Assembly: GCA_026708085.1 (NCBI GenBank)
Contig: JAPOVP010000021.1
Location: 1-64,000 of the forward strand
Direction of reading: 5' to 3'
From: Caldilineaceae bacterium
GTDB taxonomy: Bacteria; Chloroflexota; Anaerolineae; Caldilineales; Caldilineaceae
DNA length: 64,000 nucleotides
Made by a program: the position numbers and the translations under genes
Notes under the pieces: model-generated
Told to the model about the DNA's origin: nothing
Seen by the model: the letters and a program-made list of their open reading frames with translations, nothing else
Database searches by the model: none
In this document: positions 5,966 to 20,547 of the stretch, in pieces
How the letters are laid out: each line of letters opens with the position of its first letter
How positions within the stretch are numbered: position 1 is the first letter of the stretch

Positions 5966-7714
5966 ATGACCAGACAAGAACAGAGATCCGGCGGGTATAC
6001 CGAAAATATCGTCGTCCCGGATACCGACCTGGCCCTCATTGACAGATATCGAAACGAGCCCGGTCCTCTCCTTCCCATCCTCCATGCCTTCCACAATCGT
6101 GACGGATTCATCGGGCCCGCGGCGATCGAAGCAATTGGCAAGGAGTTGCGCATCCCCCTGGCCGACCTGTACGGCACGGTCACCTTCTATCACCACTTTG
6201 CACGTGAAGATGGCGGACTGCAACGACCGCGCGTCTGCACAGGACCCGTCTGCCGCCAGCGCGGCGCGTTGGAGATTGTGGAAAGCCTCGACGGTGCCGA
6301 GGAAATGCCCTGCTCGGGCCGCTGCGACGACCCCGTACCGATTCTGATCGGCCACGAAACCTTCGTGGTCAGCCCGCCGCTCCACACGCTGCAACGGCGA
6401 ATCTCCTCCCCCTTGCCTGTACCAAACCCCGGAGGGCGTGAAGAGTGCGTCTTCGCCGAGATCCGCCAACCGGAACGCGAATGCCTGGACGGCTACCGGC
6501 GCAGCGGCGGCTACGACGCCCTGACCCAGGCCGTGCAAGGGCAGACCCCGACCGACATCATCGACGTCCTCAAGGAGTCGAAGCTGGCCGGCCGCGGCGG
6601 CGCCGGATTCCCCACCGGCATGAAGTGGCAGTTCGTACGCGAGGCGCCGCGTGCGCCCAAGAGCATCGTCTGCAACGCCGATGAAGGCGAACCGGGCTGC
6701 TTCAAGGACCGGGCGCTCATGGACCATGACCCCTTCGCCGTGATCGAGGGCATGACGCTGGCCGGCTACGCCACCGGCGCCGACCGCGGCTTCCTCTATC
6801 TGCGCTACGAATACCCGGAAACCAACGCCCGCCTGGAAGAAGCCATCGAGGCTGCCGAAGAGGCCGGGCTGCTGGGGGAGAACATCCTCGGCAGCGGCTT
6901 CACTTTCAATCTGTATCTGCGGCGAGGCGCGGGCGCCTACATCTGCGGCGAGGAGGGCTCGCTGCTCAACAGCCTGGAGGGCAAGCACCCCTTCCCCCGA
7001 AACCGGCCGCCCTTCCCAACCACGCACGGTTTCGATAACCTGCCCACCGCCGTCAACAATGTGGAAACGCTTTGCGCAGTGCCGCAGATCCTGCGGCGCG
7101 GCGCAGAATGGTATCAGGGGCTGGGGCTGGGCGACCATGCCGGCACCAAGGTGATCAGCCTCTCGGGCGATGTGCAGCGTCCCGGCAACTACGAGGTGCC
7201 GTTCGGTCTGCCGCTGCGGACGTTGCTCTACGACTGGGCCGGTGGCCCGCTGCCGGGGCGCTCATTTCAGGCCGCGACCATGGCCGGGCTGTCGGGCGGT
7301 TTCCTGGCCGGCGAGGCGCTGGAGACGGTCACGCTCGACGAGCCCAGTGTCCGCGGGGCCGGCTCTATGCTGGGCGCGGGCGGGATAATCATCTTTGACG
7401 ACAGCCGCGACATCGTGGATGCAGCCCGGCAGGCGATGGAGTTCTTTGCCCATGAGAGCTGCGGCAAATGTTTTCCCTGCCGCATCGGTACGCAGCGCCT
7501 GCTCGAACGCCTGTCGGGAGGCGGCCCCGATGAACTTGACGCCTGGCGCCGCGAGATCAGCGACATCGGCGATGTCCTGGAGTTGAGCGCCTGCGGGTTG
7601 GGCGTGGCCGCCGGCTTCGTCAGCGACAGTCTGCTGCGGAATTTCCCGGAGCAGGTGGCGGAGTTTCGGGATGAACAGCGTCGGATAGTTGGTGGTGGAG
7701 GCGATTGGCTATAA
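5966..7714 (+). CDS. fdhB: NAD-dependent formate dehydrogenase, fused NuoE/NuoF-type diaphorase subunit
   Basis: Electron-output subunit that passes electrons from formate oxidation to NAD+ through [2Fe-2S], [4Fe-4S] and FMN. It is a fusion of 582 aa. Residues about 1-150 are a NuoE-like thioredoxin fold with all four [2Fe-2S] cysteines (C91-x4-C96, C116-x3-C120). Residues about 160-582 are NuoF-like, with the NADH/FMN-binding GRGGAGFPTGMKW and GAGAYICGEE motifs and a [4Fe-4S] site SCGKCFPC (C499/C502/C505) plus C543. It is first in the locus, followed by a ferredoxin-type subunit and the molybdopterin subunit, which makes formate dehydrogenase far more likely than complex I or an NAD-reducing hydrogenase. 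Gene symbols vary between organisms (fdsB, fdhB). Confidence 0.9.
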   Translation: MTRQEQRSGGYTENIVVPDTDLALIDRYRNEPGPLLPILHAFHNRDGFIGPAAIEAIGKELRIPLADLYGTVTFYHHFAREDGGLQRPRVCTGPVCRQRGALEIVESLDGAEEMPCSGRCDDPVPILIGHETFVVSPPLHTLQRRISSPLPVPNPGGREECVFAEIRQPERECLDGYRRSGGYDALTQAVQGQTPTDIIDVLKESKLAGRGGAGFPTGMKWQFVREAPRAPKSIVCNADEGEPGCFKDRALMDHDPFAVIEGMTLAGYATGADRGFLYLRYEYPETNARLEEAIEAAEEAGLLGENILGSGFTFNLYLRRGAGAYICGEEGSLLNSLEGKHPFPRNRPPFPTTHGFDNLPTAVNNVETLCAVPQILRRGAEWYQGLGLGDHAGTKVISLSGDVQRPGNYEVPFGLPLRTLLYDWAGGPLPGRSFQAATMAGLSGGFLAGEALETVTLDEPSVRGAGSMLGAGGIIIFDDSRDIVDAARQAMEFFAHESCGKCFPCRIGTQRLLERLSGGGPDELDAWRREISDIGDVLELSACGLGVAAGFVSDSLLRNFPEQVAEFRDEQRRIVGGGGDWL

Positions 7715-7762: not shown

Positions 7763-7990
7763 GTGAACACTAGTATTCATAAGCTCCTTGAGACAGTGGA
7801 ATTCGTTGTGGATATTGAAGGCCAGAAAAAGGCCGTGATGCTGGACTATTCCATTTGGGAGGACCTTGTAAGCCTTTTAGAAGATATCGAAGACAGCGCA
7901 GAGATCGAGGCTTCTCAAAATAGCGGAGAGGAAGTAATCTCCTGGGAAGAAGCCAAAGCGGAACTGCGCTCCAAGGGAATCAATGTATGA
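7763..7990 (+). CDS. Type II antitoxin of a RelE/ParE-type pair
   Basis: Acidic 75-aa protein whose 3' end overlaps the RelE-like toxin by 8 nt. The N-terminal part (LLETVEFVVDIEGQKKAVMLDY) fits an antitoxin DNA-binding/dimerisation domain, and the acidic tail (DSAEIEASQN to AKAELRSKGI) would wrap the toxin. An AAGGAGG site lies 8 nt before the ATG. The pair sits between two structural genes of the formate dehydrogenase, so it is either an insertion into the operon or expressed with it. Family assignment rests mostly on gene arrangement, size and charge. Confidence 0.75.
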   Translation: MNTSIHKLLETVEFVVDIEGQKKAVMLDYSIWEDLVSLLEDIEDSAEIEASQNSGEEVISWEEAKAELRSKGINV

Positions 7991-8234
7991 ATTACGGATT
8001 GGCCGAAGGGCAGTAAGAGACATTGAGAGACTCTCAAGTAGGTACGTTAGGCTCGTGGGCCAGCGCATAGACGGTCTTGCGGAAGAGCCGCGACCGAGAG
8101 GCGCATGGAAACTGCGAGGGAGGGCAGAGTACCGGATAAGGGTTGGCGTGTATCGTGTCCTATACAAAGTGGATGATGAGAAGAAGGAAGTGAGAATACA
8201 TCGAGTCATCCACCGCCGCGAAGCATATCGATAG
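7983..8234 (+). CDS. RelE/ParE-family toxin
   Basis: Basic 83-aa protein with the RelE/ParE fold signature: an N-terminal beta strand (YELRIGRRAVRDIERL), helices, then the strand series YRIRVGVYRVLYKVDDEKKEVRIHRVIHRREAYR. The R-V-G-x-Y-R-V-L-Y core and final HRREAYR match RelE-type mRNA interferases, which cut mRNA in the ribosomal A site; ParE-like gyrase inhibition cannot be excluded by eye. The ATG lies within the antitoxin's last codons (8-nt overlap), so translation is probably coupled. Confidence 0.85.
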   Translation: MYELRIGRRAVRDIERLSSRYVRLVGQRIDGLAEEPRPRGAWKLRGRAEYRIRVGVYRVLYKVDDEKKEVRIHRVIHRREAYR

Positions 8235-8384: not shown

Positions 8385-9080
8385 ATGCAGTCGGTGATTG
8401 AGTCGCAGCAGCAACCCACGCTGACACTTGACGGTGAAGAGTTAGTCTTCACGCCGGGCGAGACGGTTTATGAAGTGGCGACGCGGGCTGGGAAGTCCGT
8501 GCCGACGCTCTGCTATGACCCCCGACTGGAGGCCTTCGGCAGCTGCAGGCTGTGCGTAGTGGAGGTTGAAGGGCAGCGGGTGCCGGTGGCCTCATGTACG
8601 ACGCGGGCGGAAGACGGCATGGAGGTCACGACAGCGTCCGCGAAGGTGGAAGAGCTGCGGCGCACGCTGCTGGAGCTGGTTGCGTCCGAGAACCGCGAGG
8701 TGACGGTTGACGCGCTGCGGGGCGTGGCTTCACAGGAGCTGGGTACGCTTGTCGAACGTTACGACGCCGGCCGCGGCCGCTTTGCCGGCGCGCAGTCGGG
8801 CGCCAGCCGCCCGGACGACCCCAACCCGTTTATCCTGCGCGACTACGACCTCTGTATCTCCTGCTACCGCTGTGTGCGCGTCTGCGCCGAGCAGGAAGGC
8901 GATTACGCCATCAGCGTCGCCAACCGCGGCTTCGCCACCCAGATCACGGTCGAGTTCGGCGGCCATCTGCAGGACTCGGCTTGCACCTTCTGCGGCCAAT
9001 GCGTGCAGACCTGCCCGACCGGTGCGCTGGCCGACAGGAAGGCGCTGCGTTTCGCCGGCGACGGTGCACTGAACGGCTGA
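8385..9080 (+). CDS. Formate dehydrogenase ferredoxin-type subunit (NuoG N-terminus-like)
   Basis: Electron-relay subunit of 231 aa equivalent to the N-terminal part of NuoG or FdsA. Residues 1-80 are a [2Fe-2S] ferredoxin domain with C43-x10-C54-x2-C57-x13-C71. A C-terminal 2[4Fe-4S] ferredoxin domain has CISCYRCVRVC and CTFCGQCVQTC. The stretch between them, which in NuoG/FdsA carries an H-x3-C-x2-C-x5-C motif for a [4Fe-4S] cluster, has no cysteine here, so that cluster is absent. A GGAAG site lies 8 nt before the ATG. In many organisms this part is fused to the catalytic subunit; here it is a separate gene 59 nt upstream of it. Confidence 0.85.
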   Translation: MQSVIESQQQPTLTLDGEELVFTPGETVYEVATRAGKSVPTLCYDPRLEAFGSCRLCVVEVEGQRVPVASCTTRAEDGMEVTTASAKVEELRRTLLELVASENREVTVDALRGVASQELGTLVERYDAGRGRFAGAQSGASRPDDPNPFILRDYDLCISCYRCVRVCAEQEGDYAISVANRGFATQITVEFGGHLQDSACTFCGQCVQTCPTGALADRKALRFAGDGALNG

Positions 9081-9139: not shown

Positions 9140-11218
9140 ATGAACGTTACTATGTCTGACACCAGGACCACCCGGACCATCTGCGGCTACTGCGGCGTCG
9201 GCTGCTCGCTGGACCTGGTGACCCGCGACAACCGCATCATCGCCGTGCATCCGGCCTTCGACGGGCCGGCTAACCAGGGCGCACTCTGTGTTAAGGGCCA
9301 GTTCGCCTACGACTACGTCCATCACCCGGACCGGCTCACTCATCCGCTCGTTCGCGACGAGGCGGGCCAGCTGCAGCGGGCGACCTGGGACGAGGCGCTG
9401 CAGAGGGCCGCGCAGGGCTTCATGGACGTGGAACAGAAACATGGGCGCCACGCCGTCTACGGCGTCGCGTCCGGCCGTACGCCCAGCGAAGCCAACTACA
9501 TGATGCAGAAGTTCATCCGCGTGGGGTTCGGCACAAACTATATCGACAACTGTAGCCGGGCTTGACACGCCCCCACAGTCGCCGGTCTGGCGGCAACAAT
9601 CGGTCGGGGCGCGATGTCCAATCCGCTAGCGGACATGGAGAAGCCGGATGTGATCTTTTGCATCGGCACCAACATGACGGAAGCCCACCCCGTGGCAGCC
9701 ACCCGCCTGAAGAAGGCGCTTGCACGCGGGGCCAGGATGATCGTGGCCGATCCGCGCCGCATTCGCCTGGCCGAGATGGCCGACCTCTATCTGCCGATCC
9801 GCGTGGGCAGCGACACCGCGCTGCTGCTGGGCATGGCCCACGTCATCGTGCGCGATGGGCTGGCCGACAGCGAGTTCATCGCCACCCGCACCGAGGGCTA
9901 CGACGAGCTCGTCGATCATCTGCAGGAGAAGACGCCGGAGTGGGCCGAGAGCATCACCGGCGTGCCCGCGGCCATGATCGAAGAGGCGGCTATCCTCTAC
10001 GGCTCCAGCGACAGGGCCGCCATCTACTATACGCTGGGCATCACCGAGCACATTTGCGGCGTTGAGAACGTGCAGAGCCTCTGCAACCTGGCGCTGCTGA
10101 CCGGCAACTTCGGGCGCGAGGGCACCGGCGTCAACCCGATGCGCGGGCAGAACAACATCCAGGGCGCCGGGGACAGCGGCGCCCTGCCCAACAACTACCC
10201 CGGCTTCCAACCGGTGGACGATGCCGCCAATCAGGCCAAGTTCGAAAAAGTCTACGGGCGCAAGATGGACCTGGAAAAGGGCATCACCAAGGTGACGGCC
10301 CTGGACCAGTGCGGCGACAGGATCTTCGCCATGCTCATCGACGGCGAGAACACCGTCGTCTCCGACCCGGACCAGGAGCACTGCATCCATGCCCTGAAAA
10401 GCCTGGAACACCTTGTCGTGATCGATATCTTTCTGACCGAGACGGCAGAGTTGGCCGACGTAGTCCTGCCGGCTACGTCGTGGGCGGAAACCGACGGCAA
10501 CTTCGTCAATACCGAGCGGCGCATCCAACGCGTACGCAAAGCCGTGGACCCACCGGGCGAGGCCAGACCGGACTGGTGGATCATCGGTCGGATCGCCCAG
10601 CGCATGGGCATGAGCGGGATGGACTTCGACTCGCCGGTCCCCATCTTCAATGAGTTGTGTGAGCTGTCGCCGATCTACGCCGGCATCGACTGGGACCTCG
10701 CCGAGGGCGGCCAGTACCAGTGGCCGATCCCCTACCGGGGGCATCCGGGCACGCCGCGTCTGCACGAAGGCGAATTCATCAACGGGCGCGGCAAGTTCAG
10801 CTTCACCGACTACCGCGATCCGGCGGAGACGATCGATGAGGCCTACCCGCTGTGGCTGACGACGGGGCGCCGGCTGGAGAGCTACCATACACGCACGCAG
10901 ACCGGAAGATCGGAGGGTATCAACCAGCTGCTGCCCGAGGAGACACTGGAGGTGCATCCGAGCGACGCCGCCCGCTTCGGTCTCCGCGACGGCGGCTGGG
11001 CCAGGATGAGCAGCCGCCGCGGCGCGGTGGACGTGCGGGTAGAGACGACGCGGCGCTCACCGCAGGGGACGGTGTTCGCCAGCTTTTCCTTTGCCGAGGT
11101 GCCGATCAACGTGCTGACCGGTTCGGGCTACGATCCGATTACGCATACCGCGGAGCTGAAGGTCTGCCCTGTGCACGTGGAACCGATTGCCGAGGGTGCC
11201 CGGCTGGCGGCCGATTGA
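9140..11218 (+). CDS. fdhA: Formate dehydrogenase catalytic subunit, selenocysteine-containing
   Basis: Molybdenum/tungsten bis-pterin enzyme oxidising formate to CO2. The reading frame continues in phase through a single TGA (9563-9565), which falls exactly where the family has the metal-ligating Cys/Sec: context NCSRA-U-HAPTVAGLA, Sec at residue 142 (Sec140 in E. coli FdhF). The codons after the TGA form a bacterial SECIS hairpin, so this is recoding rather than a broken gene. The protein is 692 aa with an N-terminal [4Fe-4S] site (C15, C18, C22, C50), followed by FIGTNMTEAHPV and PATSWAETDGNFVNTERR motifs of the molybdopterin domains and a C-terminal dinucleotide-binding domain. AAAGGA lies 7 nt before ATG 9140; ATG 9152 is an alternative. 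Activity requires SelA, SelB, SelC and SelD encoded elsewhere, and FdhD at 11727. Confidence 0.93.
9563..9613 (+). promoter_or_regulatory. Selenocysteine UGA codon and bacterial SECIS hairpin
   Basis: The UGA is followed by an outer stem CGCCCC (9568-9573) pairing with GGGGCG (9606-9611) and an apical stem CGCC (9580-9583) pairing with GGCG (9589-9592) that presents the loop GGUCU (9584-9588). In the E. coli fdhF SECIS, as I recall it, GGUCU also sits in the apical loop 18 nt after the UGA; here the distance is also 18 nt (9566-9583). The loop G-U is the SelB contact. U9579, at the base of the apical stem, is a candidate for the bulged U. Confidence 0.88.
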
Positions 11219-11330: not shown

Positions 11331-11591
11331 ATGCGCACAGTCGGCGTCAGCGAGTTGAAGACCCACACTTCAGAAATCATTCGCAATGTTCGCGAGAATC
11401 GGATTAGCTTTACCATAACTTTCCGAGGCAGGCCCGTTGGGGTTCTGCTTCCAATTGACGAAGATGAAAAGGTTGTTCCAGGAAAGGATCAGGATTCCTG
11501 GTCTGAATTAGAAAGACTGCGCGAAGAGTTTGCGAGACGGCCTCGGCCTGAGAAATCCTTAACGGAGGCACTCACCGAGATGCGACGATAA
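11331..11591 (+). CDS. Phd/YefM-type antitoxin, orphan
   Basis: Protein of 86 aa with the Phd/YefM N-terminal DNA-binding pattern: VGVSELKTHTSEIIRNVRENRISFTITFRGRPVGVLLPI, the classic strand-helix-strand ending in R-P-V-G-V-L. The C-terminal half is charged (WSELERLREEFARRP) and would bind a toxin. GGGGA 7 nt upstream supports ATG 11331 over an in-frame ATG 27 nt earlier. No toxin follows: the overlapping TAATG at the stop opens only a four-codon frame, so the toxin has been lost or is encoded elsewhere. It lies between the catalytic subunit gene and fdhD. Confidence 0.8.
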   Translation: MRTVGVSELKTHTSEIIRNVRENRISFTITFRGRPVGVLLPIDEDEKVVPGKDQDSWSELERLREEFARRPRPEKSLTEALTEMRR

Positions 11592-11726: not shown

Positions 11727-12587
11727 TTGATTCCTCGTGTAGGAAGTAAGGTCCGCACCCGCGTCACGGTTGTGGAAGGCGGGAGGCACAGAGTCCGCGA
11801 TGACCAGTTGGCCGCGGAAGAGCCGCTGGAGATTCGGCTGCAAGCGGGGGGCGAAACGCAGACGGTCGCGGTGACGATGCGTACGCCCGGCAATGACTTT
11901 GAACTGGCGGCCGGATTTCTGCACAACGAAGGAATCGTCGAAGGGCCCTCGCAGGTCAGTGGCATCACCTACTGTGTTGACGCCGATGTCGACGCCGACC
12001 AGCGCTACAACATCGTGAACGTGGGCCTGCGCTTGGCAAGCCTGCCGGAGTTGGCGACGCTGGAACGCCACTTTTACACGACGAGCGCATGCGGCGTATG
12101 CGGCAAGGCCAGCCTTGACGCCATCGAGCTGCGCGACTGCCCGGTCCTGCCGTCGGGTCCGAAGGTCAGTCCGTCCATCCTGACGAGTCTCCCGGAGAAG
12201 CTGCGTGCGGCACAGGGCCTTTTTGAAGCGACCGGCGGTCTTCACGCCGCCGGCCTGTTCGACGCCGAAGGCAACCTCGTCTGCCTGCGCGAGGACGTGG
12301 GCCGCCACAACGCCGTCGACAAGCTGATCGGCTGGGCCTTCATGCAGCGCAGGCTGCCTCTGCACGACAGCATCCTGCTGGTCAGCGGTCGCGCCTCCTT
12401 CGAGATCCTGCAGAAGTCGACGGTTGCCGGCCTGCCGGTGGTCTGCGCCGTGTCCGCGCCCAGCCATCTGGCGGTGGACGTGGCGCGGCGGTTCGGCGTC
12501 ACCTTGATTGGCTTTCTGCGCGGCGAACGGTTGAACGTCTACACCGGCGCAGAGCGGATCCTGTGGAACGGACAAGGAACGTCGTAA
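11727..12587 (+). CDS. fdhD: Formate dehydrogenase accessory sulfurtransferase FdhD
   Basis: Transfers sulfur from IscS to the molybdenum/tungsten cofactor, an essential step for formate dehydrogenase activity. The protein is 286 aa, with EEPLEIRL near residue 31, the TPGNDFELAAGFLHNEGI block and the catalytic CxxC in TTSACGVCGKAS (C122, C125, close to C121/C124 of E. coli FdhD). The C-terminal half has the LREDVGRHNAVDKLIG and VSGRASFEI motifs. The first codon is TTG at 11727 with GGTGA 7 nt upstream; GTG 11772 is an alternative but would remove part of the N-terminal strand. It is on the same strand as the formate dehydrogenase genes and about 500 nt after the catalytic gene. Confidence 0.93.
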   Translation: MIPRVGSKVRTRVTVVEGGRHRVRDDQLAAEEPLEIRLQAGGETQTVAVTMRTPGNDFELAAGFLHNEGIVEGPSQVSGITYCVDADVDADQRYNIVNVGLRLASLPELATLERHFYTTSACGVCGKASLDAIELRDCPVLPSGPKVSPSILTSLPEKLRAAQGLFEATGGLHAAGLFDAEGNLVCLREDVGRHNAVDKLIGWAFMQRRLPLHDSILLVSGRASFEILQKSTVAGLPVVCAVSAPSHLAVDVARRFGVTLIGFLRGERLNVYTGAERILWNGQGTS

Positions 12588-12843: not shown

Positions 12844-15800
12844 ATGAAAAGGTTTTCGCTCGTTGCCCTGTTCCTTGTCCTCTGTCTGGCCGCCGGCCTT
12901 CTCCTATCCGGCGATCGGCTGGGGACCATTCTCGATACGAGCCTTCGCCCCGGGGAAATGGACCTCTCCAGCATCGGGGTGGAACAAATCGAGAGGGCGT
13001 TAGTCCAGGAAGAGGACGTTGCAGAGTATGTGCCCGGGCAGGTGCTGATCCGCTTCAAGAAGACGGTTACCCGCGACCAGATCTCCGACTTTTACGCCGA
13101 ATACGGGCTCTCGGAAAAGGACAATTTAGACAACGATGTTACCGACGCCGACCAGGGTCTGCGACTGGCGGGCGCGCCGGTCGATGTGGATGAAAACTTG
13201 ATTGAGGTGTTGGAGAGCGACGATAGGGTTGCCTTCGCCGAGCCAAACTACCTGCTGCAGATAAACGAGACACCGCCATCGGATCCGTTCTTCGAGAGAC
13301 TCTGGGGACTGCACAACACAGGGCAGACAGGCGGTACGGCCGACGCCGACATCGACGCGCTGGAAGCGTGGGAGATCAGTACCGGTTCGGATGACATTAT
13401 CATCGCCGTAATCGATACCGGTATCGAGGTCGAACACGAAGATTTGATCCCGAATCTATGGACGAACCCAAAGGAATGTCCGCGGGGTGCAGGCAGGTGC
13501 GTGGAGAACGGCATTGATGACGACGACAACGGCTATGTGGATGACTTCCACGGCATTAATGCGATTAACAACAGCGGCAGACTGCTGGACGACTACGGTC
13601 ATGGGACCCATGTGGCCGGTATCGCGGCCGCCGCGGGGGACAACAGGAAGGGCGTCGTCGGCGTCAGTTGGAATGCAAAGATCCTTGGTTGTAAGTTCAT
13701 CACCGCCTTTGGCACGGGCACGACCTCCAACGCGGTCAAATGCTTCAACTACATTTACGACCTGCGCACCAAGCAGAAGCAGAACATCGTCGTAACCAAC
13801 AGCAGTTGGGGCGGTGGCTCGCCTTCGCGTGCTCTGCGAGAGGCGATGGGGCGGGTCAATTCGCCGCTGCATGTCTGCTCCGCCGGCAATTCGAACTCCA
13901 ACCGTAAGCTCTACCCTGCCGCCTACGATCTGGACAATATCATATCTGTGGCAGCGACAGATCACGACGACATCTACGCCGGCTTCTCCAGCTGGGGCGA
14001 GGATTGGGTCGACCTGGCTGCCCCCGGTGTAAGCATTCTTTCAACGATTCCGTCCGGCCGCTGTCCCATGTGTTTGCCGTCCGGCTATGGGTCCACCAGC
14101 GGGACGTCGATGTCCGCTCCCTACGTTACCGGCGCCGCCGCGCTGATCTGGTCTGAGTTTGAAGGGCTGAACAACGATCAGGTCAAGCAGCGCATCCTGT
14201 CCGGTGTCGATGCACTGCCGGAACAGTCCAAGAAGACCTTGACCAACGGGCGCCTGAACCTTTTCAACTCGATGGAAAAGGACACGACGCCGCCGGCGAC
14301 CGTTTCGGACCTGTCGCCCTCTGGCGTACTCCTGACCAAGATCCTTCTCTCCTGGACTGCAACCGGTGATGACGGCTTCTCCGGGCAGTCCACCGCCTAC
14401 GACGTCAGATACGACACGGCGCCGATATCGAATGCAACCTGGGACTCCGCTCAGCAGGTTGCGACCGAACCCATTCCCGGCGCCTCCGGATCCAGGGAGG
14501 AGCTCGAAGTCTCCGGGCTGGAACCGAACACAACCTACTACTTTGCACTGCGGGTGGCGGACAACGTGGGCAACGTATCCGACCTCTCCAATATCGTGAT
14601 CGCCCGCACCAGCGCAGGTACGATCGTCTTTGAAGACGACATGGAAAGCGGGTCGGGCAAGTGGACTATCGAAGACGCCGACGATAACCTCTGGCATCTT
14701 TCCAGTCTGCGATTCAACAGCCCGGAGACCTCCTGGTACTACGGCCGCGAGAGGCAGCGGAACTACGACACGGGCGAGGAGAATGAGGGCCGGATCACCT
14801 CCGGAATCATCGACGTTGCTGGCGCTGATGACGCGCTGCTCACCTTCTACGAGTGGAGTGAATTGCAGAGAAACACGCGCTTCGACCGCACTCGAGTCCA
14901 GATTTCCACTGACGGTACGACGTGGCGGACCGTCTTCGAGTCTCACGGTACCGAAGGGCACTGGGCGAGACGCGATGTGGACCTGAGTGAGGCGGTAAGC
15001 GACAGCGGTTCGATACAGGTACGATTCTGGTTTGATACGATAGATGACTCCTTCAATGATAACGAAGGCTGGTACATCGACGACGTTCAGGTCTTGACCG
15101 CGAAACTGCAGCTGCCAGGCGAAAAGCAGCTCCTGCCCAATCTGGTCGCCCAGTCGATAAACATCGGCTTCAACCCAGCCGACCCGCACGCCGGCGAAGA
15201 AACAACCATACACGGAACGGTTCTCAACAACGGCAACGCCGATGCCCGTGCAGTTACCGTGCAGTTCGTCGATGTCACTGAAGAGGATGCTGCGGTTCCG
15301 ATCGGCCTGCCTCAGACGATTGCCGAAATCCCTGTCGGAGGCAGCGGCGTGGTCCAGGTGCAATACGACACCGAGGAGAAGGACGGCGAACGAACCATCC
15401 GCATGGTGATCGATCCCAACAACTTCGTCGCCGAGCGCAACGAAGCCGACAACGCCGCCGACCGTATTCTCAACGTCGCCGAGGCGCCCGCGCCCAACCT
15501 GTTCGTTGACTCAGGCAACATTGGATTCGACCCGGCGTCGCCGCAGCCCGGTGAGCAGGTTACGATCCTGGCGACAATCGTCAACAACGGAACGGCCGAC
15601 GCCGAAAGCATTATTGTCCAGTTCAGAGAGGGCAGAACGACGCCTGTCGCCCTCAACCAGGTGATCGACAGCATCCCTGCTGGCAGCAGCGCGGTGGCGC
15701 GGGTCACTTACGACTCCAGCAGGAGTTCGGGCAATCCGAGTATCACCGTCACCGCTGATCCGGACAACTTCATCACAGAGCTGGACGAAACTGACAACAG

Positions 15801-18800
15801 CGCGAGCAAGACCCTGACACTGCAGGCAGACACCGAACCGAACCTGAAGGTCTCCTCCGGCAACATCGGTATCGCGCCATCCAACCCCGTGGAAGGCGAT
15901 GAAGTTACCATCTATGCAACCATTCGCAACGCGGGCGACTCTGAAGTCCAGGATGTGCAGGTACAGTTCCTGGACGCCAACAGAAGTCCTGCGACGCCGA
16001 TTGCAGCGCTTCAGGTCATTCCTTCGATTGCACCCGGTAGCAGCGGGGTGGCGTCGATTCGCTATGATACGACCAACCGCAGCGGCGATCAGAAGATTCA
16101 GGTGCAGGTCGATCCACACAATCTGGTGGCAGAGTCAAGTGAGGGAGACAATAGCGCCACGGCCACGCTGAGTGTGGAACACGGACCGGCCCCCAACCTG
16201 GTTGTTGTTGACGAGAACATCGGCTTCAGCGCCGTTGAAGTGGCCGCAGGCACGCCGGTGACCGTCTACGCTACGATCCTGAATACAGGCAGTTCCAGAG
16301 CTGAGGGTGTGATCGTGCAGTTTGTGGACGTGACCAGCGCCAGCGTGAGGCCGATAGGCGAGCAGCAGACAATCGAGGGCATAGAGCCGGGTACTTCTGC
16401 GGTTGCTGTGGCCCAATACACGGCATCGGGCGGGCAAGGCTCGCGCACGATCCAGGTGGTCGCCGATCCTGGCAACTTCGTCCGCGAGATCAGTGAAGAC
16501 GACAACGAAGGCAGCGCCTCCCTGACGGTCGGCAGCGCCCCGTTGCCGAACCTGTTCATTCACAGTAACAACATCGCCATCTACCCGGCCCAGCCGGTAA
16601 GCGGCGAGGAGGTAACCCTGCGCGCCGTTGTCGGCAACAACGGATCGGCGGCGGCCGAGCATGTCTCCGTCCAGTTCTTCGATGTTACCAGCGGCGAAGC
16701 CCGCCTGCTGGGCAGCGAGCAGACGATTGATCTGATCGGCGTAGGCAGCAGCGGCACCGCCGCGGTAACCATCACCGAGTCGATCTCTGTCGACAGACCG
16801 ATAGGCAACCGCAAGATCCAGGTGCTGGTCGATGCCAACAATCGCATCAGGGAATCGAGCGAAGAGGACAACACGGCCACTCGGCTGCTGACTCTCGAGC
16901 CTGAACCGATGCCGAACCTGGTGGTGCTGGCCGAGAATATCGGTTTCAGTCCGGCCAATCCCCGTGTTGGCGAGACGGTGACGATCCTGGCCGTCGTTCG
17001 CAACGACGGCGACGTCATAGCCAGGAATGTGGTTGTGCAGTTTGAGGACGTGAGCGCGGGACGGCCGGTTCCCATCGGAGAGGCACAGGAATTGGACAGG
17101 ATCCCGATTGGCGGCAGCGGCGTCGTGACCGTGAAGTTTACGATTCCGGAGGCCGCAGGCACCTACAAAGTGCGGGTGGTCGCCGATCCCGGCAATTTCA
17201 TCGCCGAAACCAATGAGATCGACAACAAGGGCACGCGCAGTCTGGAGGTAGACGCTGCGCCGATGCCGAACCTGGTGGCCCTCTCAGAAAACATCGGATT
17301 CAATCCGCCGACGACCTCGGCCGGCAGCGAGGTGATCATCTCGCTGACCGTGGTGAACAACGGCGCGGCCGCCGCCGAAAACGTCCAGGTCCACTTCACA
17401 GACGTTACCGGCGGACGCCTGAGTCCCATAGGCGACATTCAGACGTTGGCCTCGATACCTGCCGGCGACAGCGCCATCGCCAGCGTGACATTCAGCACCG
17501 CCGGGCGTTCAGGAGAGCGCCGCATTCGAGCCAGTGTTGACAGTTTGTCGATCATCACAGAGAGCGATGAGACGGATAACACCGCCAGCAAGACACTGCT
17601 TATCGCGCGAGGAACTTCGCCCAATCTGTCCGTGCAGGCGGCCAACATCAGCTTCACCCCGACAAACCCGAACTCGGGAGATGAGATTCGAGTGCAGGCC
17701 GTCATCCTCAACCAGGGAGGACAGGACGTTGGTGAAGTCGACGTCCAGTTCCTGGATGTGACGGGAGACGAGGCCGTTCCGATTGGAACAGGTAAGTTGA
17801 TTGACTCGATCCCCGCCGGCAGCAGCGGAATTGCGGAATCCGTCCTGAACAGCCGCGGCCTGTCAGGAGAGCGCAAAATCCGGGTGGTGGCCGACCGCAG
17901 AAACCTGATCTCCGAGTCTGACGAGACAGACAATCAGGCCGAGGCCGCGATCTCGATCAACCCGCCCGCGATTCCCAACCTGGTTATCGAATCAGGCAAC
18001 GTCGGCTTCCATCCCACCAGACCGGTGGAGGGCGATCAGGTTACGATCAATGCCACGGTTTTGAATGAAGGCGGCGGCGATGCCAGTGAAGTGATCGTGC
18101 AGTTTGTGGAAGGCAGCGGGCAGGGCGTGCCGATCGGTGAACCGCAGATTATCGATAGGATTCCGGCCGGCAGCAGTGGGGTTGCCCAAGTCGTCTTTGA
18201 TACGGCCGGCAAGGACGATCCCAGAATTCAGGTGATCGTCGATCCCAATAACTACATTGCGGAGACGAAAGAGACGGACAACAGAGCGTCCGCCGCATTG
18301 AGGATGGCGGCTCAGCCGTTGCCGAATCTGTCCGTCAAGAGCAGCAACGTTGCGATCACGCCGAAGTCGCCGCGTGAGGGACAGAGGATAATCCTCACCG
18401 CCATAATCGTCAACCACGGCAGCGCGCCGGCACGCGACGTGGACGTGCAGTTCATGGATTTGACGGAGCGGCCCGGCGTGCCGGTAGGGGCGGCGCAGAC
18501 GGTATCGTTGATTCCGTCCGGCGGCAGCGCCGCCGTGGGCGTCGTCTACGACACGACTGAACGGGAGGGCCAGCGTCGAATCGCGGTGACGGCCGACCCC
18601 GGAAACTTCATCGAGGAAATTTCCGAAAGCGACAATACTGCGAATAAGTCGATAGAAGTGCTGGAGCGGGCCGCCCCCAACCTGATCGTACAGCCTCGCA
18701 ATGTGGGCTTCAATCCCGCCGCCCCGACCGAGGGCGACCGGGTCCTGATTCGCGCGATCGTTCTCAATGATGGCGTAGAGGATGCTACCGACGTGGTGGT

Positions 18801-20547
18801 TCAGTTCCTGGACGTTACCGAGGCAGGCGCGGTGCCCATCGGCCAGCCTCATGTCGTGGGCTACCTGGCGGCAGGGTCCAGCGCCACGGTTCCCATCATA
18901 TATGACACGCTCGACAGGCCGGGCGACCGCCGCATACGCGTTGTTGTCGATCCGAACAACTTCATACGCGAGAGCAGCAAAGAGGACAATCAGACGGTGG
19001 TTACCCTACCGGTCCAGGCTGCGATGGCGCCGAACCTGGCAATGCTGTCTGGCAACATCAAGTTTGCCCCGCAGTCTCCCGAGCTCCACGACGTCGTGAC
19101 CGTCTCGGCAACCGTGTTGAACAACGGCACCGATACAGCGCACGATGTCATCGTACAGATTCTGGACGTCACCGGCGGCGGGTCGGTGCCCATAGGCACG
19201 GAACAGCTGCTGGATGCCGTTCCTGCCGGCGGCGGCGGCACCGTAGAGGTCTCATTCACCGACACCGGCGAGACGGGCAGCCGCCAGATTCGGGTTGTAG
19301 TTGATCCCAACAATGTCATCGCCGAGATGAATGAGCGGGATAACCAGGCGACGCGCGGGCTCTTTATCTCGCCGCCGCAACTGGCCGACATCGTCGTAAG
19401 CGAAGAGGATGTTGAATTCGATCCCGAAGATCCGGTCGAAGGCACGGATACAATTATCACAGTGAGGGTCTCTAACAACGGCAACGCCAATGCCCGCGGC
19501 TTCGTCGTCCGCTTCCTGGATGTGACGGAACGGGTGCCCAGGCCCATCGGCGGCCCGCAGCGGATCGACCAGCTTGGCGCAAATGACAGCGCTACGGTAT
19601 CGGTAACCTACGATACTGAAGGCAAGGCCGGAGAGCGCAAGATCCGTGTGGTCGCTGATTCGGAAGATGCAGTGAACGAACTGGACGAGGGGAACAACAG
19701 GGTTGAGCTGGTCCTGCGTGTGCGCACAACCTCGGAAGCGTCCGATGATGCGCCCAATCTGACGGTCCTCTCCTCCAACATTCGCTTCTTCCCGGCCGTT
19801 CCAAGTCCGGGAGCTCCGGTTACGATTACGGCGGTGATTCGCAACCAGGGCAACACGGTAGCTGAGAACGTTGTTGTCCGGTTTGAGGATGTTACCGATG
19901 AAGAAGGAGAGGAAGAGGTAATAGTTGAAATCGGCGAGTTCACGATAGCGGAGCCAATTCAGCCCAGTGCACGCGAGCTGGCGGTGATATCCTTCGATAC
20001 GAGCGACCTAGATGGACCTCGGGTCATTCGAGTGACCGTCGACCCTGACGACGAAATCAGTGAGACGGACGAAGACGACAATTTCGCCGAGCGCACACTC
20101 CGCTTCAGCACGTCGGCGCAGGGAAATAGCCAGGGGGCGGGATCGGACGGTTTGGCGTCGTCCTCCAGTGGAGAAAGCGGAGAAGAAGGCGCCAATCTTG
20201 CTCTGAACGCTCAGGAAGTCGAGGTAGAAGTGGCTCGGGCCGGTGAAGGGGACCTGGTGGTTGTCGCCACAAAGGTGCGCAATGAGGGCAGCATTGACGT
20301 GGGCGGCTTCAGCATCCAGGTTCTGGATGAGTCCGACGATCTGAACCCGCTCGGCTCGCCCCAGACAGTGGAGTATCTGGCTGCTGGTGAGGAAATCACA
20401 GTGCGTACGGTTTTCCGGGCGGCTGACGGCCTGGGAACCCGGACGCTGCAAGTGGTCGTCGACCCGGCCAACGTAATATCGGAAAGCTCTGAACTGGACA
20501 ACAGGGTGAGCGTGCTCGTGTCTGCCCTGATCCCGGCCGACGGATAG
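12844..20547 (+). CDS. Giant secreted subtilisin-like protease with about 15 CARDB-like repeats
   Basis: Secreted serine peptidase of family S8, 2567 aa. There is an N-terminal signal peptide (MKRFSLVALFLVLCLAAGLLLSG), a fervidolysin-type prodomain (YVPGQVLIRFKKTV), then the catalytic domain with D191 (AVIDTG), H253 (GHGTHVAG) and S422 (GTSMSAP) all present. A fibronectin-III-like domain (about 479-590) and a MAM/jelly-roll-like domain (about 595-755) follow. From residue 765 to the C-terminus run about 15 CARDB-like repeats of 115-119 aa, each opening PNL-x8-NIGF-xP and closing IRVVVDP-N-x-I-x-E-x-x-E-x-DN. The last repeat is degenerate. No sortase motif, dockerin or C-terminal anchor is visible. 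The repeats probably form an extended stalk or adhesive fibre. It stands alone between two palindromes. Confidence 0.9.
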   Translation: MKRFSLVALFLVLCLAAGLLLSGDRLGTILDTSLRPGEMDLSSIGVEQIERALVQEEDVAEYVPGQVLIRFKKTVTRDQISDFYAEYGLSEKDNLDNDVTDADQGLRLAGAPVDVDENLIEVLESDDRVAFAEPNYLLQINETPPSDPFFERLWGLHNTGQTGGTADADIDALEAWEISTGSDDIIIAVIDTGIEVEHEDLIPNLWTNPKECPRGAGRCVENGIDDDDNGYVDDFHGINAINNSGRLLDDYGHGTHVAGIAAAAGDNRKGVVGVSWNAKILGCKFITAFGTGTTSNAVKCFNYIYDLRTKQKQNIVVTNSSWGGGSPSRALREAMGRVNSPLHVCSAGNSNSNRKLYPAAYDLDNIISVAATDHDDIYAGFSSWGEDWVDLAAPGVSILSTIPSGRCPMCLPSGYGSTSGTSMSAPYVTGAAALIWSEFEGLNNDQVKQRILSGVDALPEQSKKTLTNGRLNLFNSMEKDTTPPATVSDLSPSGVLLTKILLSWTATGDDGFSGQSTAYDVRYDTAPISNATWDSAQQVATEPIPGASGSREELEVSGLEPNTTYYFALRVADNVGNVSDLSNIVIARTSAGTIVFEDDMESGSGKWTIEDADDNLWHLSSLRFNSPETSWYYGRERQRNYDTGEENEGRITSGIIDVAGADDALLTFYEWSELQRNTRFDRTRVQISTDGTTWRTVFESHGTEGHWARRDVDLSEAVSDSGSIQVRFWFDTIDDSFNDNEGWYIDDVQVLTAKLQLPGEKQLLPNLVAQSINIGFNPADPHAGEETTIHGTVLNNGNADARAVTVQFVDVTEEDAAVPIGLPQTIAEIPVGGSGVVQVQYDTEEKDGERTIRMVIDPNNFVAERNEADNAADRILNVAEAPAPNLFVDSGNIGFDPASPQPGEQVTILATIVNNGTADAESIIVQFREGRTTPVALNQVIDSIPAGSSAVARVTYDSSRSSGNPSITVTADPDNFITELDETDNSASKTLTLQADTEPNLKVSSGNIGIAPSNPVEGDEVTIYATIRNAGDSEVQDVQVQFLDANRSPATPIAALQVIPSIAPGSSGVASIRYDTTNRSGDQKIQVQVDPHNLVAESSEGDNSATATLSVEHGPAPNLVVVDENIGFSAVEVAAGTPVTVYATILNTGSSRAEGVIVQFVDVTSASVRPIGEQQTIEGIEPGTSAVAVAQYTASGGQGSRTIQVVADPGNFVREISEDDNEGSASLTVGSAPLPNLFIHSNNIAIYPAQPVSGEEVTLRAVVGNNGSAAAEHVSVQFFDVTSGEARLLGSEQTIDLIGVGSSGTAAVTITESISVDRPIGNRKIQVLVDANNRIRESSEEDNTATRLLTLEPEPMPNLVVLAENIGFSPANPRVGETVTILAVVRNDGDVIARNVVVQFEDVSAGRPVPIGEAQELDRIPIGGSGVVTVKFTIPEAAGTYKVRVVADPGNFIAETNEIDNKGTRSLEVDAAPMPNLVALSENIGFNPPTTSAGSEVIISLTVVNNGAAAAENVQVHFTDVTGGRLSPIGDIQTLASIPAGDSAIASVTFSTAGRSGERRIRASVDSLSIITESDETDNTASKTLLIARGTSPNLSVQAANISFTPTNPNSGDEIRVQAVILNQGGQDVGEVDVQFLDVTGDEAVPIGTGKLIDSIPAGSSGIAESVLNSRGLSGERKIRVVADRRNLISESDETDNQAEAAISINPPAIPNLVIESGNVGFHPTRPVEGDQVTINATVLNEGGGDASEVIVQFVEGSGQGVPIGEPQIIDRIPAGSSGVAQVVFDTAGKDDPRIQVIVDPNNYIAETKETDNRASAALRMAAQPLPNLSVKSSNVAITPKSPREGQRIILTAIIVNHGSAPARDVDVQFMDLTERPGVPVGAAQTVSLIPSGGSAAVGVVYDTTEREGQRRIAVTADPGNFIEEISESDNTANKSIEVLERAAPNLIVQPRNVGFNPAAPTEGDRVLIRAIVLNDGVEDATDVVVQFLDVTEAGAVPIGQPHVVGYLAAGSSATVPIIYDTLDRPGDRRIRVVVDPNNFIRESSKEDNQTVVTLPVQAAMAPNLAMLSGNIKFAPQSPELHDVVTVSATVLNNGTDTAHDVIVQILDVTGGGSVPIGTEQLLDAVPAGGGGTVEVSFTDTGETGSRQIRVVVDPNNVIAEMNERDNQATRGLFISPPQLADIVVSEEDVEFDPEDPVEGTDTIITVRVSNNGNANARGFVVRFLDVTERVPRPIGGPQRIDQLGANDSATVSVTYDTEGKAGERKIRVVADSEDAVNELDEGNNRVELVLRVRTTSEASDDAPNLTVLSSNIRFFPAVPSPGAPVTITAVIRNQGNTVAENVVVRFEDVTDEEGEEEVIVEIGEFTIAEPIQPSARELAVISFDTSDLDGPRVIRVTVDPDDEISETDEDDNFAERTLRFSTSAQGNSQGAGSDGLASSSSGESGEEGANLALNAQEVEVEVARAGEGDLVVVATKVRNEGSIDVGGFSIQVLDESDDLNPLGSPQTVEYLAAGEEITVRTVFRAADGLGTRTLQVVVDPANVISESSELDNRVSVLVSALIPADG

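Follow-up and report, generated by a model that had tools for sequence, protein, structure and literature searches.

A UGA-containing formate dehydrogenase gene with a conserved SECIS element in an uncultured Caldilineaceae lineage

The gene fdhA, located within a stretch of 64,000 nucleotides from the genome of a Caldilineaceae bacterium, which we refer to as the window, most likely encodes a working formate-oxidising selenocysteine (Sec) enzyme, whose in-frame UGA would be decoded with the help of SelB and a SECIS element and which would be the catalytic subunit in a soluble formate dehydrogenase (FDH) linked to NAD, a reading to which we assign a probability of about 95% based on sequence comparisons. 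The gene itself, the position of its UGA, the conserved hairpin behind this codon, the Sec machinery of the genome and the neighbourhood of the gene are all direct observations (Table 1). In the mechanism that we propose, SelB loaded with Sec-tRNA would bind the hairpin in the mRNA just past the UGA at 9563 and cause the ribosome to insert selenocysteine at residue 142. Sec142 would then ligate the Mo or W of a bis-MGD cofactor and take part in the oxidation of formate, from where electrons would pass via the Fe4S4 cluster of FdhA and the clusters of a HoxU-like protein to a NuoE-NuoF subunit and finally to NAD+, while sulfuration of the cofactor would fall to FdhD, whose gene lies directly downstream. 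It is the knowledge of the protein family that guides our assignment of the cellular insertion of Sec, of the metal and the route of the electrons, of the specificity for NAD+ and of the direction of catalysis, and it is in the same conditional sense that we refer to formate as presumed substrate and to the presumed cofactor of the enzyme.

Table 1. Features of the fdhA locus in the window and of selD, which is located elsewhere in the same genome.
Feature	Position	Strand	Properties
NuoE-NuoF fusion, presumed FMN/NAD-binding beta subunit	5966..7714	+	PF01257, PF01512, PF10531, PF10589
HoxU/NuoG-like Fe-S protein; presumably the N-terminal part of the alpha subunit, split off	8385..9080	+	PF13510, PF22117
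fdhA, FDH catalytic subunit	9140..11218	+	692 residues if UGA 142 is read as Sec; TIGR01591, PF04879 (Fe4S4), PF00384 (molybdopterin), PF01568 (dinucleotide-binding)
In-frame UGA, codon 142 of fdhA	9563..9565	+	putative Sec codon; TGA in 48/60 loci, Cys codon in 11/60, gap in 1/60
Bacterial SECIS (putative)	9560..9618	+	SECIS_3 match, fold, pair counts compared to Cys homologues, invariant over 26 nt in 16 members of the genus
SECIS upper stem	9578-9583 with 9589-9594	+	loop GGUCU 9584-9588
SECIS lower stem	9568-9573 with 9606-9611	+	weaker
fdhD, presumed sulfurtransferase for FDH cofactor	11727..12587	+	PF02634, 230.4 bits
selD	L022:5477-6862 (own genome, contig C124)		in-frame UGA at CAGUASKLPPG

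A preliminary description of the window had portrayed the catalytic gene as two frames in the same phase with the TGA at 9563 as the one interruption, and a scan of the frame agrees in finding this codon as its sole internal stop, while the terminator of the gene, at 11216–11218, is a second TGA. The placement of the UGA at the Cys/Sec position of the FDH family, which had been proposed in the same description, is borne out by alignments to solved structures, where codon 142, flanked by the residues NCSRA-U-HAPTVAGL, aligns with a Cys in FdhF of HDCR (PDB 7qv7) and with a residue denoted X in the F420-type FdhA (PDB 9t1s), which we read as Sec. With C substituted for U, the product of fdhA scores 763.3 bits against the profile of the FDH alpha subunit TIGR01591, compared to a cut-off of 666.25, and the match extends over positions 1–672 of the 672 in the profile.

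We have searched the fdhA protein in 61 genomes, its own and those of 60 relatives, and obtained a match at E ≤ 0.001 in 60 of them. From the top of the match list, 60 loci (L051–L110) were examined, with lower matches falling outside the count. At codon 142, TGA is found in 48 of these loci, which belong to 44 genomes, and TGC or TGT in 11, whereas the remaining locus (in genome G015) is covered by an N-run of the assembly. The presence of UGA where homologues carry Cys or Sec is a pattern that characterises bacterial selenoproteins. TGA is contained in the own genome and in 15 of its 16 same-genus relatives, the sixteenth being the one with the N-run, as well as in all 15 Caldilineaceae loci among 23 loci from named records, many of which stem from the same genomes as the set of 60; the other eight of the 23, with identities of 22–29%, were kept outside the codon count. 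An early stop was observed in two relatives of UGA type (L077 and L084), which may be frameshifted, broken or misassembled.

A comparison with 15 relatives of the genus yields dN/dS ratios of 0.02–0.11 for codons 1–141 and of 0.03–0.09 for codons 143–692, which places both halves of fdhA under purifying selection. These ratios, the same TGA in 48 of the 60 loci examined from 44 genomes, and the sel genes in the genome leave next to no room for a nonsense mutation or a sequencing error that would define fdhA as a pseudogene, as might be suspected from a standard stop codon that interrupts the frame. In particular, the misreading of a TGC or TGT as TGA, which had been envisaged as a possible objection, is contradicted by the recurrence of the codon at homologous loci, and it is this recurrence in combination with the selection on both halves by which the pseudogene and the sequencing error were ruled out. 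Another potential role of the UGA would be that of a mainly regulated stop, where in the absence of selenium only an Fe-S peptide of 141 residues is made and where the ATG at 9614 may start a second product of 534 residues. The reading frame from this ATG is open, and SECIS-dependent decoding competes with termination, but purifying selection acts alike on both halves of the gene and the C-terminal piece alone would be devoid of the Fe4S4 domain and of residue 142, which renders such a role very unlikely.

A genome-wide reassignment of UGA to an amino acid, hence another genetic code where a SECIS is not needed, could in principle account for the readable UGA in fdhA and for another one in selD. 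It is opposed by the terminator of fdhA, which is itself a TGA, and by the next stop past the Sec codon in the 48 TGA loci, which is TGA in 22, TAG in 13 and TAA in nine cases and which is not reached in four. Because TGA, TAG and TAA all end loci of UGA type, UGA serves as a normal stop elsewhere, and the homologous proteins largely share the same end point. The hairpin described below is moreover kept beside the UGA only and not retained in Cys homologues. With TGA used as end stop and the hairpin being specific to UGA-type genes, we have rejected the reassignment as hardly credible, and selenocysteine at a locally recoded UGA remains the preferred reading.

The region surrounding the UGA matches the Rfam model SECIS_3 (RF01989) at positions 1–59 of 59 with 47.7 bits and E = 4.2e-10, a score below the Rfam gathering score of 63, and a scan of the window with Rfam at the gathering threshold returned zero matches. 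The element works like one of the SECIS_3 type, yet by its score it falls outside the Rfam family. Within the own genome (6.24 Mb), it is the single match to SECIS_3 (E = 1.7e-9, with 150 of 2606 first-look candidates scored), and across 14 control genomes a match was found in E. coli only. The GGTCT of its loop is separated from the UGA by 18 nt (9566–9583), a spacing that the preliminary description had ascribed to E. coli fdhF and that we could confirm in the sequence of E. coli K-12 (NC_000913.3), where GGTCT follows the TGA at codon 140 of fdhF at the identical distance. Of the checks that had been suggested at the time, the covariance model provided a positive answer, albeit below the gathering score, whereas the folding energy did not: the 51-nt piece, with a minimum free energy of −21.3 kcal/mol, is not unusual (z = −1.19, equalled by 23 of 200 shuffles), and for a piece of 61 nt the z compared to shuffles is +0.73. 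Folding energy was consequently dropped as proof of a SECIS, and because it is indistinct from shuffled sequences we have used comparative evidence, on which the case for a putative SECIS exceeding chance rests. A model derived from 46 distinct rows of UGA type, when run against the own genome, returned the fdhA element as its only match up to an E-value of 10 (150 of 7883 first-look candidates scored); the same model failed to report the hairpin of selD and therefore says little on SECIS elements of other families. A scan of promoters and terminators gave counts near the shuffled mean and plays no part in our argument.

The comparative evidence distinguishes the two types of loci in motif and pairing. 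The sequence CCGGTCTGG is found behind codon 142 in 48 of 48 TGA loci compared to none of the 11 Cys loci, and the motif GGTCT in 48 of 48 compared to one of 11. Pairing in the upper helix amounts to 99.6% in the 46 distinct TGA rows and to 47.0% in the 11 Cys rows, values that were obtained from related rows, for which shuffle counts do not amount to probabilities, and changes on both sides of a pair were detected in 15 of the TGA rows for pair 18–30, in six for pair 19–29 and in one for pair 16–32. The lower helix is paired to just 76.1% in the 46 TGA rows, where pair 7–48 fails in 30 and pair 10–45 in 28. Together, the contrasts in pairing and motif define a hairpin that is conserved near the UGA and specific to UGA-type genes, as described for selenoproteins. 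Between codons 10 and 681, the longest invariant run in 16 members of the genus encompasses 26 nt and coincides with columns 16–41 of the hairpin, followed by a run of 11 nt, and the third base is kept in 83 of the 493 codons for invariant residues of these 16 members (with M and W left out).

Pair 19–29 of the hairpin connects bases in the codons for residues 148 and 151. Across the 48 TGA loci, these residues are A148/A151 in 40 cases, T148/V151 in six and mixed in two, and neither combination occurs in the 11 Cys loci. As their codons are base-paired with each other in the hairpin, residues 148 and 151 covary, and it thus seems that the RNA structure dictates the protein sequence at both positions.

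The genome also contains the components for Sec decoding, selA, selB, selC and selD, whose absence had been named beforehand as an argument against a selenoprotein. The tRNA-Sec (selC) scores 67.6 bits and is classified by ARAGORN as tRNA-SeC with the anticodon tca, selB and selA reach 318.5 and 549.9 bits, respectively, each with its neighbour in the frame, selB also contains the SelB winged-helix families, and selD, which scores 331.4 bits, is interrupted by a single in-frame TGA, suggesting that SelD itself is probably a selenoprotein. A hairpin with the loop AGGUC can form behind the UGA of selD, with an energy that does not stand out from shuffled sequences (z = −0.90, equalled by 33 of 200 shuffles). 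The sel genes are distributed over four contigs, none of which is the contig of fdhA, a distribution that has to be viewed in light of a contamination of 7.47% in the assembly. The same genes recur throughout the genus, with a tRNA-Sec of 67.6 bits and selB and selD above their cut-offs in 17 of 17 members. On a broader scale, selB exceeds its cut-off in all 44 genomes with a UGA-type fdhA and in 10 of the 17 others, whose status was defined by the fetched loci with lower matches outside (Fisher p = 4.5e-5, a nominal value that ignores relatedness). In the 44 genomes, selD surpasses its cut-off in 42 (the exceptions being G028 and G058) and tRNA-Sec our threshold of 60 bits in 43, with a best score of 49.5 in G026. 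A selD with TGA was found in G019, G024 and G033 though selB is not above its cut-off in these genomes, which are 69–87% complete.

The genes next to fdhA point to its partners. The NuoE-NuoF fusion matches the beta chain of the FDH in PDB 7e5z, and its score of 440.1 bits against TIGR01959 is below the cut-off of 558.65. In the alpha chain of the same structure, the HoxU-like protein matches residues 73–273 and FdhA residues 286–989, hence two consecutive parts. The genes for NuoE-NuoF, the HoxU-like protein and FdhA are found together in all 15 Caldilineaceae loci from named records, with NuoE-NuoF being cut by the contig end in one of them (L030), and fdhD, downstream of fdhA, is the single match to PF02634 in the own genome. 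Both domains and synteny place subunits of NuoF and HoxU type alongside FdhA, as in NAD-dependent FDH complexes, and the gene set is predicted to be the plan of a NAD-linked FDH with its alpha chain split in two. Genes for a RelB-like antitoxin and a toxin of the ParE family are located between the NuoE-NuoF and HoxU-like genes (7763–8234, plus strand). The spacing of the latter two varies from about 100 to 660 nt among Caldilineaceae loci, and the RelB/ParE pair may therefore be an insertion in only some of them. A gene for an antitoxin of the Phd/YefM type resides between fdhA and fdhD (11331–11558, plus strand), and the relative G015 has a comparable frame after its fdhA. Further downstream (12844–20547, plus strand), the window contains a frame of 2567 residues that comprises a subtilase domain as well as 15 stretches of CARDB, within which ARAGORN reports a tRNA-Ala at 16961–17062 that is probably a false call.

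The preliminary description had expected that automatic annotation would label the gene as a pseudogene, an expectation that differs from what we found in a database of 5.8 billion proteins, where all of the 120 listed homologues (of 7973 matches) are truncated proteins of 514–552 amino acids that cover 74–79% of the query. No pseudogene label was seen among these 120 of 7973 matches, in a database that may not hold pseudogenes. The Fe4S4 domain is absent from all 120, which also miss the catalytic residue, and the five homologue sequences that we read start with MSNP, corresponding to the ATG after the hairpin. The truncated records point to a systematic database error, and metabolic reconstructions that are built on them would miss both domain and residue.

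For the uncultured Caldilineaceae lineage, our results indicate the production of selenoproteins and, as judged from its genes, a probable ability to oxidise formate with NAD+. They also put forward a client that may account for the SelA and SelB enrichment reported in sponge symbionts, where both proteins co-occur in the majority of bins (PMC5649159), with no named client in the cited portions and no word beginning with formate in the main text of that study. One of our loci with TGA in fdhA (L037) originates from a Caldilineaceae bin of the same work (MPML, bin5). It is possible, although we advance this tentatively, that selenium in these Caldilineaceae serves mainly one catalytic client, the NAD-linked FDH, besides SelD, which would explain the enrichment described in PMC5649159 at least in this lineage, and that the client stayed unseen because protein databases contain its close relatives only in a form cut short at the UGA.

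Sec-containing FDHs of Anaerolineales in the Chloroflexi are already part of the literature, as far as conveyed by the portions of the papers cited here, and the fdhA of Caldilineaceae adds a member to a known enzyme type. Such FDHs were annotated in three single-cell genomes of Anaerolineales (PMC4959059), for one of which a NAD-FDH with Sec was described (PMC5736913), and a Chloroflexi MAG from Lost City contains fdhA beside nuoG, hoxF and hoxE together with the Sec pathway (PMC7117926). These cases concern other lineages, and the cited portions of the three papers contain no SECIS test and no mention of a Caldilineaceae FDH. A survey from 2006 has, in its cited part, identified FdhA in 67 of 75 Sec-using organisms, with sel genes and fdhA often forming one operon (PMC1794560), unlike the arrangement found here, where they are apart.

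Among solved structures, the best matches of FdhA are FdhF of HDCR (PDB 7qv7, 627.9 bits) and the F420-type FdhA (PDB 9t1s, 623.1 bits), which according to their PDB titles belong to hydrogen- or F420-linked complexes, in contrast to the NuoF-linked neighbours in the window. E. coli formate dehydrogenase H (fdhF, Sec140; PDB 1aa6), which aligns with 502.4 bits over residues 12–686, shares the Sec position of the family and the 18-nt spacing to GGUCU, but its apical stem carries a loop of four nucleotides, compared to the loop of five on a longer G-C stem described here, and its partners differ from the NuoE-NuoF and HoxU-like proteins whose genes adjoin fdhA. The latter resemble the alpha-beta architecture of the NAD-dependent FDHs of PDB 7e5z and 7vw6, tungsten enzymes according to the PDB title, whose beta and alpha chains are matched by NuoE-NuoF, the HoxU-like protein and FdhA. 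In these enzymes, however, the alpha chain is made in one piece and contains a Cys at the position aligned to UGA 142, whereas in the window its two parts are encoded by separate genes for proteins of 231 and 692 amino acids.
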